DNA of 32,306 nucleotides from Candidatus Peribacteria bacterium (GTDB lineage: Bacteria > Patescibacteriota > Gracilibacteria > UBA1369 > LOWO2-01-FULL-3), in contig CALRGJ010000013.1 in NCBI GenBank assembly GCA_943357285.1, positions 1 through 32,306 of the forward strand, in the 5' to 3' direction. The position numbers were made by a program, and so were the translations under genes. How positions within the stretch are numbered: position 1 is the first letter of the stretch; each line of letters opens with the position of its first letter. Positions 2,067 through 12,639 of this stretch are shown piece after piece. A model generated the notes under the pieces. That model made no database searches. It saw only the letters and a program-made list of their open reading frames with translations, and was not told where the DNA came from.

Positions 2067-3647
2067 TTATAAAAAGATATCTTTTTGTAGTTCAATTTGT
2101 AGTTCAATGATTTCTTTAAATTGTTTTCCTACTAAACTTTCTGCTCTATTCGTGAATGCTTTTGCTTTTTGAAGAAAGACCTCTTTTATTTCAGAAATAG
2201 AATTTTTGCTTACTAAAAGTGCGTGTTTTGCGCCCATTATGGAATATTGGACTTCTTTTGGATTGAGTTTTGTGGCTTCTAGGAAATAGGTTGATGCTTG
2301 TAAATGTTCTAATTTTATCATTGATTTAAGCCCTTCTTGGTATTTAAAATCTGCAGAAATGGATAATAAATTTGTTGTAATTGAGAGTGCAATTAATGCG
2401 AAGGCAATTAAGGTTATTATGACTGATTTTAATTTGGAAACTCTTATTGAATAATTTTTTTTATCCGATGTGTTGTTGATTATTATGCCTATAATTAACC
2501 ACCAAAATACATAATGTATTGTTGTTGAGAAGCTGAACATGTTTGTGACGAAAAGAGAAACCAAACTTATTAGTGAAGAGAGAAGGATGTTGTTCTTTCT
2601 GTTTTTGATGCAAATTATGAAAATTGACAATAATAATCCTATGTAAGAAATAAGTCCTAAAATTCCTGAAAAAAAAGTAGTATCTAAAATTTCATTATGT
2701 GCTCGATCTACTTTCTCTTTATCAAATTGAGGGAATACTTCTGATAAGGTTTCTGGTCCGTATCCTATAAGTGGTTTGGATATTATTTCTTTTATTGTTT
2801 CGGGCCAGATTTTTAATCGTATTTCAGCTGACTTAAAAGTTTCGCCATGTATGAGAAAACGACTGAGAAATATATCTTTTTCGATCTGAAGGTTTGAACT
2901 GAAGATGTTTAGAAATATTGTAATTAGGCAAAGTGCCGCTGGTATTAGTAGTAATTTTTTTTGTCCTTTTATTATTGAAAATAAGATGAGCCCGGTTGTT
3001 AATCCTAAAATTGCACTACGGCTTGTTGTTAAAATTATTGTTAATAAAATTAGAAGTGAAGAAGTGAACCAAAAATATTTTTTGTTTGAGGATTGTGTTT
3101 CTTCTGACCAATTAAAAAAACAGAAGGGAAGAGTTATGAGTAGATAGCTGGCTAGAAAGTCTGGTTGACCTATTGTCCCAAAAATTCTTAGGGTGCTGAA
3201 TTGTTGAGAAAGGGCGATAATTGAGGTGGCCAATGCTCCATAGCAAAGCCAATTTATTGGTTCTTTTGTGTTTTTTTTGTCTAAGCTTAGTAAGCAAAGA
3301 AAAAATAAAATATAATGTAGAAATTGGAAAAGTCCTTGGCCTCTTCCGTATGATCCCCAAAAACTTAAGTGGGGAAAAACTGAAAAAATTGTGCTGAGTG
3401 AAAAGATTAGGATGTAGCTAATTAAAGCTATCCAGAAAAATTTATTTTCTCTTTTTATTTCGTGAAAAGAAAATTGGTGGCTTAGCATTGTTTTAAACAA
3501 TATTAGGCCACCAATTATTAATGTAAATGTTCTGAATAAAATTGCTTTAGGAAGTTCGTAGGCTTGAGCAATTTCAGGAATAAAGACTAGGGGGACTCCG
3601 ATAATGATAATAGCAAGACAGTATCGAATTAATTTATTTATCCCCAT
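2067..3647 (-). CDS. O-antigen ligase / polymerase family membrane protein (Wzy/WaaL/PglL type)
   Basis: A 526-residue polytopic membrane protein with about ten to twelve hydrophobic segments and a C-terminal, probably helical repeat-like soluble tail from about residue 430. The segment TTSRSAILGLTTGLILF resembles the Wzy_C signature (TxSRgaxlal) found in O-antigen ligases, polymerases and PglL/TfpO-type protein O-oligosaccharyltransferases. A larger loop (about 270-320) contains IGYGPETL and DRAHNEILD, matching the GxGxxxF...HNxxL pattern with the conserved histidine of these enzymes. It probably moves a lipid-linked glycan onto an acceptor outside the membrane. It lies 12 bp after a Thr/Gly-rich secreted protein gene and is almost certainly cotranscribed. 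That arrangement favours a protein-glycosylating role, but glycan polymerisation is equally possible from sequence alone. Confidence 0.8.
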   Translation of the reverse strand: MGINKLIRYCLAIIIIGVPLVFIPEIAQAYELPKAILFRTFTLIIGGLILFKTMLSHQFSFHEIKRENKFFWIALISYILIFSLSTIFSVFPHLSFWGSYGRGQGLFQFLHYILFFLCLLSLDKKNTKEPINWLCYGALATSIIALSQQFSTLRIFGTIGQPDFLASYLLITLPFCFFNWSEETQSSNKKYFWFTSSLLILLTIILTTSRSAILGLTTGLILFSIIKGQKKLLLIPAALCLITIFLNIFSSNLQIEKDIFLSRFLIHGETFKSAEIRLKIWPETIKEIISKPLIGYGPETLSEVFPQFDKEKVDRAHNEILDTTFFSGILGLISYIGLLLSIFIICIKNRKNNILLSSLISLVSLFVTNMFSFSTTIHYVFWWLIIGIIINNTSDKKNYSIRVSKLKSVIITLIAFALIALSITTNLLSISADFKYQEGLKSMIKLEHLQASTYFLEATKLNPKEVQYSIMGAKHALLVSKNSISEIKEVFLQKAKAFTNRAESLVGKQFKEIIELQIELQKDIFL

Positions 3648-3659
3648 TTATCACATTTA

Positions 3660-4745
3660 TTAGATTGATCCCACCACTCCTTTTGCTGAACAAGATTTCA
3701 TCACATCATTATATGATTTGTCTGTAACAGTGCTTGTAAATGTGCCTTTTTGAGCTAAATCTAAATATTTTTGGCAATCTTCTTTGTTTAGACATAGGTA
3801 GTTTGCATCATTTGCTGCTTTGAAATTGTCTGAAAAATATTTCCCTTCAAGAATTGTGCAAATTTTAGCCATATTGTTGTTGAACTTGTTGTCGCATTTA
3901 CGTTCATAGACCATTTTTTGAGGATTGCAATTTTCGATTATTTTTTCCCAATTAGTAATGCTTCCTGTAGGACAGAAATATTTAGGGTTACATGCTCCTT
4001 CTGGAGGTGTAGTTAGATTGACACTATATTTAGTTATTGTATTGCTTGGCGTTGGTAATGTTCCACTGTAGTTTGTTTGTTGTCCGTATGATGATGGGCA
4101 TTTTAGATTTTTACCTACTGCTGAAATGTAAATGTCTTTTCCTAAGCTATCGCAGTCGCATTGTAGACCGAAGTGTAGTGTGTCAGATGGCTCTTCATTG
4201 CCTGTTTTTGGCGGAACTTTAGTTGGATCAATTGGGATTACTGGTATTGTTGGGCCAGTACCTGTGTTATTGTTTCCTGCTGTAGTGCCATTGCCAGTAT
4301 TGGTATTTCCTCCTGTACCATCGGTGCCGTTTGTGCCTTTGGTTCCAGTAGATGGGTTTATAAATTTCCATGAGGGGATTGTCGTTCCTGTTTTTGAAGA
4401 ATTTGGGTCTAATTTTGTTTGTGTACCGGTTGGCTTGTTTTTGTCTAAAATATAGCCTTCTGGTTTGCCTGGTATATAAAAGCCTGGAGTCCCTGCTTTT
4501 GGTGTTGCTGTGCCTTTTCCAGTACCAGGAGTTACAGATGTTCCTGGGGTTCCTTTTCCACTTTGAGGATGGGTTTGGTCCCATTCCTCTTGGCTTATGC
4601 ACCACCAAGGTAAAGAAGTAGATTGCATTTGGATACTACCTAGAAATTTGCCGGAGGATTTACCGTAAACTGCTCCGATACCTAAAGTAATTACTACTCC
4701 TGCAATTAGAAAGTAGGTTTTTTTGTTGTTTTTCATTGAATTCAT
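3660..4745 (-). CDS. Secreted/anchored Thr-Gly-Pro-rich protein with a cysteine-rich C-terminal half
   Basis: No family recognised. Residues 1-8 are basic, then about 9-27 (YFLIAGVVITLGIGAVYG) form a signal or anchor segment. Residues about 60-190 are low complexity: Thr, Gly, Asn, Pro and Ser with repeats such as GTPGT, TKGTNGTDGTG and TNTGNGTT, likely extended and exposed. The C-terminal half has eleven cysteines, plus one at about 49, an even total that suggests disulfides in an extracytoplasmic fold. The Thr-rich tract would be a good O-glycosylation region, and the next gene 12 bp downstream encodes an O-antigen-ligase/PglL-type protein. Either ATG (4745 or 4736) could be the start. It is preceded by a plausible promoter at 4768-4795 and no Shine-Dalgarno motif. 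Confidence 0.7.
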   Translation of the reverse strand: MNSMKNNKKTYFLIAGVVITLGIGAVYGKSSGKFLGSIQMQSTSLPWWCISQEEWDQTHPQSGKGTPGTSVTPGTGKGTATPKAGTPGFYIPGKPEGYILDKNKPTGTQTKLDPNSSKTGTTIPSWKFINPSTGTKGTNGTDGTGGNTNTGNGTTAGNNNTGTGPTIPVIPIDPTKVPPKTGNEEPSDTLHFGLQCDCDSLGKDIYISAVGKNLKCPSSYGQQTNYSGTLPTPSNTITKYSVNLTTPPEGACNPKYFCPTGSITNWEKIIENCNPQKMVYERKCDNKFNNNMAKICTILEGKYFSDNFKAANDANYLCLNKEDCQKYLDLAQKGTFTSTVTDKSYNDVMKSCSAKGVVGSI

Positions 4746-11311: not shown

Positions 11312-11662
11312 CTATTTCCTTATTTTATTGTCTTCTGGAGTGATATAACTCTTCACTTCTGTCTTTTGCATCCCTGAAACTTTATCGTTTTCTTCGAGAT
11401 TGGTGAATGAAGTTGAATCATTTACTTTTGTGGCTAATTCCAATTCCTGGCTTTTTAATTGTTGATTCTCGATTTTTAATTGTTGCAGCGTGTAGCCTTT
11501 TTGTGAGCCACTATTTGTAGTTAGAAGAAAAGTCACGCTGAGGGCTATGATCATTATTGTTAATGTAATAATGAGTAAGCGAATGGTGCGGCGCGCTTCG
11601 TTTTTCAGGGTCTCTTTGTTGCGAATTTTTCCGTATTTTAATTCGTAATCAATGATACTCAT
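11312..11662 (-). CDS. Small single-pass membrane protein, FtsL/DivIC-like
   Basis: 116 residues. A short basic cytoplasmic N-terminus is followed by one membrane helix at about 27-49 (RLLIITLTIMIIALSVTFLL) and a probable coiled coil with Leu/Ile spacing (YTLQQLKIENQQLKSQELELATKV). The C-terminal tail is polar. This short-helix-coiled-coil plan is that of the divisome proteins FtsL and DivIC, but also of unrelated proteins, and sequence identity is too low to be certain. Its ATG overlaps the stop of the SLH-RlpA gene (ATGA), so it is translationally coupled to a cell-wall protein, which fits a septal role. It ends the rpmH operon; no clear terminator follows before the tRNA promoter. Confidence 0.5.
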   Translation of the reverse strand: MSIIDYELKYGKIRNKETLKNEARRTIRLLIITLTIMIIALSVTFLLTTNSGSQKGYTLQQLKIENQQLKSQELELATKVNDSTSFTNLEENDKVSGMQKTEVKSYITPEDNKIRK

Positions 11663-12639
11663 GGTGTAGGGGTAGAAGTTTCTGGAGTTTGTGGATCTGT
11701 TGGAGTTTTTTCTTCTGGTTTGTATTCGTGGTATTCAACATTCACTACTCCGGCGCTTGGTGAAGCAATCAGAGAAAAGGCTTTTTTTGATAAATCTAAT
11801 ATGCGCCCCGGGACAAAAGGTCCGCGATCAGTTACTTTTACTTTTACTGATTTGCCATTAGCGATATTTGTAACTTCAACAATTGTTCCAAATGGTAAAG
11901 TTTTATGTGCTGTAACCATTAAGTCTTGATCGTTCATGTCGTTTTCTTTACCTGGAATTCCAAAATAGTAAGTAGCATTGCCGAAATCAGATCCTTCACG
12001 GCTGAGCATGGTACGATAGATTATTTCAGCTAAATACCCGCGAGTCATTATCTGGTTTGGATTGATACTGTTGTCTTCATAAACTTCCACTAAATTATGT
12101 GCGCCAGCATAGGAAGTATAATGTGAATACCAAGAATCAGGAGCAGTATCTATAAAAGTGAAATTTTGCCCGTCTTCGTAATTGATGAAGTCTGGATTTA
12201 CGCTTTTTACGGCTTCAAAATACATTTTTAATGTTTCTGCGAGATTGATTGGGGATTCCGGTTTGAAGCTTCCGTCTTCATAGCCGTTTATGATTTGTTT
12301 TTCTTTTGCCGCTGAAAGATATTCTGTGTACCACTCGCTTAGAGGAGTATCTGTAAATGGCGCTTCTTTTGGTTCCGGAAGAGAGTCTGTGAATACTCCG
12401 CTTGCCAGAGTAAGCATTTTTAGAGCTTCAGCGCGATTGATCTGCTGATTTGGCTTAAAGCTTCCGTCTTCGTATCCGTTTATAATGTTTTTTTCTTTGA
12501 GGTAAGCGATTGGAACGAAATAAGCGTTTCCTTCTCTTACATCAGTAAAATTATCTGCTGAAACTATCGGCAAGTTTATGGCGAGGAATATGGGAATGAG
12601 TAAGGCTGCGGCTATAACTTTTGAGTTGCTCTTACTCAT
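11659..12639 (-). CDS. Secreted protein with three SLH domains and an RlpA-like double-psi beta-barrel
   Basis: 326 residues. A signal peptide ends near VSA-DN (about 28). Three S-layer-homology repeats follow at about 30-80, 94-143 and 161-210; two contain IINGYEDGSFKP, a typical SLH motif, and the third is more diverged. SLH domains bind secondary wall polymers. Residues about 221-304 form an RlpA-like barrel (TAHKTLPFGT, VTDRGPF, GRILDLSKKAF) keeping His245 and Asp271, which correspond to the residues needed for lytic transglycosylase activity in Pseudomonas RlpA. The SPOR domain of proteobacterial RlpA is absent; SLH repeats appear to take over wall targeting. A short Pro/Thr tail ends the protein. 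It is 5 bp from khpB and overlaps the FtsL-like gene, pointing to wall cleavage coupled to division. Confidence 0.88.
   Translation of the reverse strand: MSKSNSKVIAAALLIPIFLAINLPIVSADNFTDVREGNAYFVPIAYLKEKNIINGYEDGSFKPNQQINRAEALKMLTLASGVFTDSLPEPKEAPFTDTPLSEWYTEYLSAAKEKQIINGYEDGSFKPESPINLAETLKMYFEAVKSVNPDFINYEDGQNFTFIDTAPDSWYSHYTSYAGAHNLVEVYEDNSINPNQIMTRGYLAEIIYRTMLSREGSDFGNATYYFGIPGKENDMNDQDLMVTAHKTLPFGTIVEVTNIANGKSVKVKVTDRGPFVPGRILDLSKKAFSLIASPSAGVVNVEYHEYKPEEKTPTDPQTPETSTPTP

Follow-up and report, generated by a model that had tools for sequence, protein, structure and literature searches.

The window (the whole stretch of DNA analysed, 32,306 nucleotides) contains two adjacent minus-strand genes, one encoding an exported cysteine-rich protein and the other a membrane protein of the O-antigen ligase type. 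The question raised by this locus is whether the two genes encode the acceptor and the enzyme of a protein glycosylation system. The gene products are as described in the initial annotation. The secreted protein, said to have a Thr/Gly/Asn/Pro tract and twelve cysteines and to be encoded 12 bp before the ligase, has a tract of 132 residues and 12 cysteines, and the genes are separated by 12 bp; the O-antigen-ligase/Wzy_C-type protein, said to have a soluble tail, matches PF04932 (E 3e-20) and ends in a tail of approximately 93 residues (Table 1). No clear Shine-Dalgarno sequence was seen in the spacer, and judged from the sequence the start of the ligase gene is probably translationally coupled to the partner gene. 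The host genome (1.21 Mb, 99% complete) belongs to the Peregrinibacteria, little-known bacteria of very small size; in GltX it shares 98% identity with Candidatus Peregrinibacteria bacterium LacPavin_0818_WC45_MAG_38_18.

Table 1. Features of the gene pair (positions refer to the window).
Feature	Position	Strand	Basis
Exported, membrane-anchored Cys-rich protein, proposed glycan acceptor, 361 aa	3660..4745	-	ORF call; homologues L057, L040
N-terminal membrane anchor with FLG motif	4635..4745	-	alignment A3, scan of the order
Thr/Gly/Pro/Asn-rich linker, residues 59-190, 28 Thr per 132 residues	4176..4571	-	composition
Cys-rich C-terminal domain, residues 196-352, 11 of 12 Cys	3690..4160	-	sequence, homologue comparison
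Putative single Cys-framed module copy CQKYLDLAQKGTFTSTVTDKSYNDVMKSC, Thr337 at the conserved T/S position	3690..3776	-	leave-one-out profile
Spacer, 12 bp	3648..3659	.	sequence
Wzy_C-family polytopic ligase, proposed O-oligosaccharyltransferase, 526 aa	2067..3647	-	PF04932 E 3e-20
Wzy_C core with R210, R277, P292/G295/G297, H317	2640..3059	-	family alignment, n=103
Soluble C-terminal tail, TPR-like by homology	2070..2348	-	TPR matches of relatives, positive-inside reading

The Wzy_C domain was located at residues 197-336 of the ligase with a score of 73 bits (curated cut-off 31.7), and PF04932 was matched by all 18 related ligases. The protein has about 13 hydrophobic segments. Read by the positive-inside rule, the loop charges point to 13 helices, which would place both the large catalytic loop and the tail outside the cytoplasm. 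Among 103 aligned ligases R210 was conserved in 98, R277 in 102 and H317 in 99 sequences. These residues correspond to R215/R288/H338 of WaaL and R224/R298/H349 of PglL, which are needed in the respective enzymes (Schulz et al., PMC3643930). By sequence, the PDB yielded a match to WaaL (7TPG, E 0.035) and to no other structure, and the three catalytic residues were aligned. P292, G295 and G297 show the P-x2-G-x-G spacing reported for PglL (P313/G316/G318) in the same study; because both glycines are invariant here (103/103 and 103/103), this resemblance is weakly discriminating. No match to PglL_A (PF15864) or Wzy_C_2 (PF11846) was detected at E 0.1 in 18 family members, and this absence counts against the O-glycosylation reading. 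TPR models matched the tail in up to eight of 18 related ligases, the tail of the window ligase itself being unmatched. Single-sequence AlphaFold models of the partner and the ligase (pLDDT 36 and 46, respectively) were too low in confidence for use.

Since Pfam alone does not separate polymerases from ligases, the protein could polymerise polysaccharide as a Wzy enzyme or act as a ligase on a non-protein acceptor, and the surface protein could display or bind the polysaccharide. One clade of relatives (L061, L062, L070, L074 and L075) fits this description, as its members adjoin sugar transferases and initiating polyprenyl-phosphate transferases. In the ligase tree, however, the window ligase does not group with these polymerase-like relatives, in agreement with the expectation of the initial annotation. 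Moreover, the genes flanking the pair resemble ribonucleotide reductase on one side and members of the agmatine pathway on the other (identities beyond Pfam matches were assigned by sequence inspection), and these neighbours form neither a polysaccharide gene cluster nor an LPS core or O-antigen locus. The glycine spacing of PglL also speaks against a polymerase, though not strongly, as it is family-wide. We consider a polymerase or non-protein ligase improbable. The host genome encodes an initiating sugar-phosphate transferase (Bac_transf match, E 3e-62) and a flippase-like protein (Polysacc_synt_3 match, E 4e-11), matches that are consistent with, but do not prove, a supply of lipid-linked glycan. 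Elsewhere in the window, positions 11659-12639 code for a single protein with S-layer-homology domains and a lytic-transglycolase-type DPBB domain, possibly a wall-anchored peptidoglycan enzyme.

A ligase homologue was present in 71 of the 89 genomes of the order; a scan of genome contigs with the ligase as query found nothing. Genes were called around each of 109 homologous ligase ORFs from these 89 genomes. The ligases adjoin exported, membrane-anchored proteins far above chance: among same-strand genes immediately upstream, 27 of 58 encoded an exported protein with a single TM segment, compared with 90 of 519 background genes located three or more positions away at the same loci (Fisher p 1.6e-6). 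Exported neighbours in convergent downstream position were enriched less strongly (14/44, p 0.02). Secreted neighbours containing a 40-residue stretch with at least 30% Ser+Thr were enriched (p 0.006), and with at least 40% Ser+Thr the enrichment was not significant (p 0.19). Exported, often Ser/Thr-rich neighbours were present beside ligase homologues, an outcome in favour of the initial annotation, which would have been contradicted by ligases lacking a secreted Thr-rich neighbour. Adjacent genes need not be enzyme and substrate, and it also counts against the glycosylation reading that most ligases of the order have no Cys-framed module (see below) beside them and that some adjoin polysaccharide-type genes. 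Around another ligase clade (L044, L047, L048, L049, L051, L054) a recurrent cluster was observed, consisting of a secreted metallo-beta-lactamase-like protein, an opposite-strand MurA-like gene, the ligase and then one or two exported proteins (gene identities by sequence inspection).

Partner type tracks ligase clade, and at least three types of partner were distinguished. Partners repeatedly show a membrane anchor bearing an FQG-like motif together with Cys-framed modules or, in another clade, V-x-[ST]-x repeats. The module, of which several ligase partners carry copies, is a repeat of approximately 30 residues with two invariant cysteines (canonical RCxxVKxLWDEGNWTARFGSTxEPAxCKxLYY; pattern C-x3-K-x2-W-x2-G-N-W-T-...-C-K-x2-Y-Y). 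It was matched by no Pfam or NCBIfam model and is a new repeat, confined to this class in an evenly drawn sample of the phylum. A profile built from 12 loci, every one adjoining a ligase, was run on whole genomes. With an E-value limit of 0.001 it detected 19 module loci among 353 class genomes, and 18 of the 19 adjoin a ligase. Six of the seven loci that had not been used for training (L143, L144, L145, L147, L182 and L183, not L181) adjoin a ligase, and so does an eighth (L146, E 0.007), for which just the C-terminal piece of the ligase is present at the contig end, giving 7/8 in total; L147 and L144 are less independent because they share a genus with training loci. The module protein of genome G217, without a ligase beside it, counts against the glycosylation reading. 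When the module was mapped as a label on the ligase tree, five changes were required compared with 17.6 after shuffling, and none of 500 shuffles was as low.

The residue following W/L/F in the module was Thr or Ser in all 32 unseen repeats found with the profile; conservation was re-measured in this way because the first regular expression had demanded T, S or D at this position. The conserved threonine may merely cap a helix, which counts against an acceptor role. An N-linked sequon (N-x-T) was rejected, as GNWT is common yet not constant, and STT3 was not found in the host genome. Some module proteins also carry S-layer-homology domains (L068 by Pfam, others by inspection), and on some of these the modules form arrays of eight to nine copies, nine being the maximum. 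The host genome also encodes, on contig C22 (L279:4078-4365), a mini-protein of 95 aa that has an FQG anchor and one module-like stretch (C...CLKNYPDL); its gene does not adjoin a ligase.

All nine ligases of another clade (SH 99) are preceded directly, on the same strand, by a gene for a V-x-[ST]-x tetrapeptide-repeat protein. The two genes mostly overlap or are a few bases apart. In a six-frame scan of 1.4 Mb, which comprised the ligase loci and their surroundings rather than whole genomes, such arrays occurred at exactly these nine loci and nowhere else. Most of the repeat proteins have an FQG-type anchor; in L090 the repeat array alone was seen. This anchor, present on many ligase partners, consists of a TM helix, about eight residues and then [LIM][FW][QK]G, with FLG as the variant of the window; alignment A3, part of the evidence for the signature, contains the row of the window partner itself. 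FQG-type anchors (FQG/FKG/WQG/FLG) were found on the window partner and in L039, L040, L043, L078, L096, L279 and L280-L284. A role as a ligase-specific tag was ruled out: the signature occurs one to seven times per genome in 75 of 89 genomes, several times away from any ligase, and marks a broader set of exported proteins. It is perhaps a common anchor or processing signal.

The window ligase falls outside the main module clade, in a clade of six ligases each having an exported protein directly upstream. The partners in this clade are the window protein, its homologue in L040 (genome G007), S-layer-homology proteins in L041, L042 and L059 (identified by inspection) and an opposite-strand FQG protein in L039. 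Different partners accompany the ligases of L040 and of L041/L042, even though a summed branch length of about 0.3 marks these ligases as near relatives. Compared with the clades whose partners carry modules or V-x-[ST]-x repeats, the window pair is a less typical case.

The partner protein has a hydrophobic N-terminal helix, and 11 of its 12 cysteines lie in the C-terminal half. It had no match to any Pfam or NCBIfam family, pilin models included, and no prepilin motif at the N-terminus. A single module copy could be aligned at its C-terminal end. With this copy left out of the profile it scored 5.7 bits, a value matched by one of 1000 Cys-preserving shuffles, and the score of the copy in the L040 partner was matched by 18 of 1000. 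These results are suggestive, not proof, of a module in the window partner. Homologues of the partner were observed in two further genomes, G010 and G007, and in no others. The homologue in G010 (L057, BLASTP E 3e-13) adjoins carB and has no neighbouring ligase. The homologue in G007 (L040, local E 0.007), a genome of another genus, has Cys motifs in common with the window protein and is located 7 bp upstream of a ligase 34% identical to the window ligase; it was found via the ligase neighbourhood, the direct homology search having missed it. A second genome matched in the direct search was discarded as a spurious frame with stops. The carB gene adjoins the partner homologue in G010 (L057:4666-9096) and a ligase in G003 (L148:1-3694), possibly a shared ancestral spot.

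The initial annotation had proposed that the pair is a substrate and its ligase, with a substrate that is not a pilin. This proposal gained genetic support from the survey counts and the recurring pairs. The Thr/Gly tract, on the other hand, is not conserved: in contrast to the linker of the window protein (61% Thr+Gly+Asn+Pro), that of L040 is rich in Lys/Glu and that of L057 in Gly/Pro. Given also the lack of significance for neighbours with at least 40% Ser+Thr, the tract was rejected as the conserved acceptor. It might be argued that the adjacency of the window pair is accidental, the family association being real elsewhere and the partner an ordinary anchored surface protein. The left-out module match is marginal, the G010 homologue stands without a ligase, and the protein has so few relatives. 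However, a homologous pair recurs in G007, and the exported protein directly upstream is a feature of all six clade members, so that accident is a very unlikely explanation.

Since the family is catalytically intact and has clade-specific exported partners with Ser/Thr-rich or fixed-Thr repeats, enzyme plus acceptor is the simplest account. With some reserve, we regard dedicated O-glycosylation of a non-pilin protein acceptor as the probable function of the window pair. From the observed pair, its recurrence, the match between clades and partners and the kept catalytic residues we infer the following course, in which the transfer of glycan, the residue that accepts it and the function of the tail are predictions. 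The partner would be secreted and held at the membrane by its N-terminal helix. At the outer face of the membrane the ligase would take over a lipid-carried glycan, and its Arg/Arg/His active site would join this glycan to Ser/Thr of the partner, the soluble tail probably helping to hold the acceptor. Across the lineage the ligase family would have diversified together with its acceptors, which could be Cys-framed modules with a fixed Thr, V-x-[ST]-x repeats or, in the window clade, Cys-rich or S-layer-homology proteins.

Alternatively, the partners could assist the ligase as accessory subunits that dock on its tail, for instance as anchors, chaperones or specificity factors, and the ligase could glycosylate another acceptor or polymerise a glycan. 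Linkage is as tight as would be expected for a subunit, and about half of the ligases checked have TPR, protein-binding tails. But it would be odd for a subunit that related ligases have unrelated partners (S-layer-homology, Cys-rich, V-x-[ST]-x), and both the module arrays, with nine copies at most, and the low-complexity Ser/Thr repeats resemble acceptors. The subunit explanation is rather unlikely. Within the acceptor reading, a further-reaching idea is put forward tentatively and with some doubt: the module may serve as a portable acceptor domain closed by a disulfide, each repeat carrying one glycosylated Thr; module and V-x-[ST]-x repeat proteins, some of them attached through S-layer-homology anchors, may take the place of lipid A as carriers of surface glycans in Peregrinibacteria; and each ligase clade may have co-evolved with its own carrier type.

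In the literature consulted, protein O-oligosaccharyltransferases belong to Gram-negatives and act mainly on pilins or have general substrates; surface decoration in Patescibacteria is poorly understood. Neither for Peregrinibacteria nor for the candidate phyla radiation did we find literature on O-antigen ligases. The ligase clades of the Peregrinibacteria, each with its own partners, suggest a family of matched enzyme-target pairs for coating proteins with sugar. If this is true, the pairs come with defined new tags (the 30-residue Cys-framed module and the V-x-[ST]-x repeats) that could be tested by reconstitution and could serve glycoengineering, and the surface chemistry of these uncultured bacteria becomes testable.

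Linkage of O-oligosaccharyltransferase and substrate genes is an established pattern, common for protein-specific enzymes (PMC3643930, PMC12645811), and homologues of PglL-type enzymes adjoin pilin genes (PMC3643930). Like PglL of Neisseria, the ligases described here have a Wzy_C core with Arg/Arg/His and P-x2-G-x-G, lie outside LPS loci and adjoin a candidate acceptor gene. They differ from PglL in lacking PglL_A/Wzy_C_2 (18 tested), in their non-pilin partners, in the TPR tails of many members and in their occurrence in Peregrinibacteria instead of Gram-negatives. With PglS of Acinetobacter baylyi and its substrate ComP they share the arrangement of one dedicated substrate gene (here a candidate) adjoining the enzyme gene. 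The tag of ComP, a stretch framed by two cysteines with an internal Ser (PMC12645811, Table 1), resembles the two-Cys module with its internal Thr, but ComP is pilin-like, whereas the module is unrelated in sequence, occurs in up to nine copies and in some proteins accompanies S-layer-homology domains. TfpO/PilO and TfpM also have the substrate gene directly adjoining the ligase gene; those enzymes modify a C-terminal Ser/Thr of pilins, whereas no pilin signature was seen here. WaaL (7TPG) is similar in sequence family and catalytic residues, but its acceptor is the lipid A core, whereas here a gene for a protein partner adjoins and there is no LPS locus. The ligase-partner pairs are of a known general kind and are new in their proposed substrates and in lineage.
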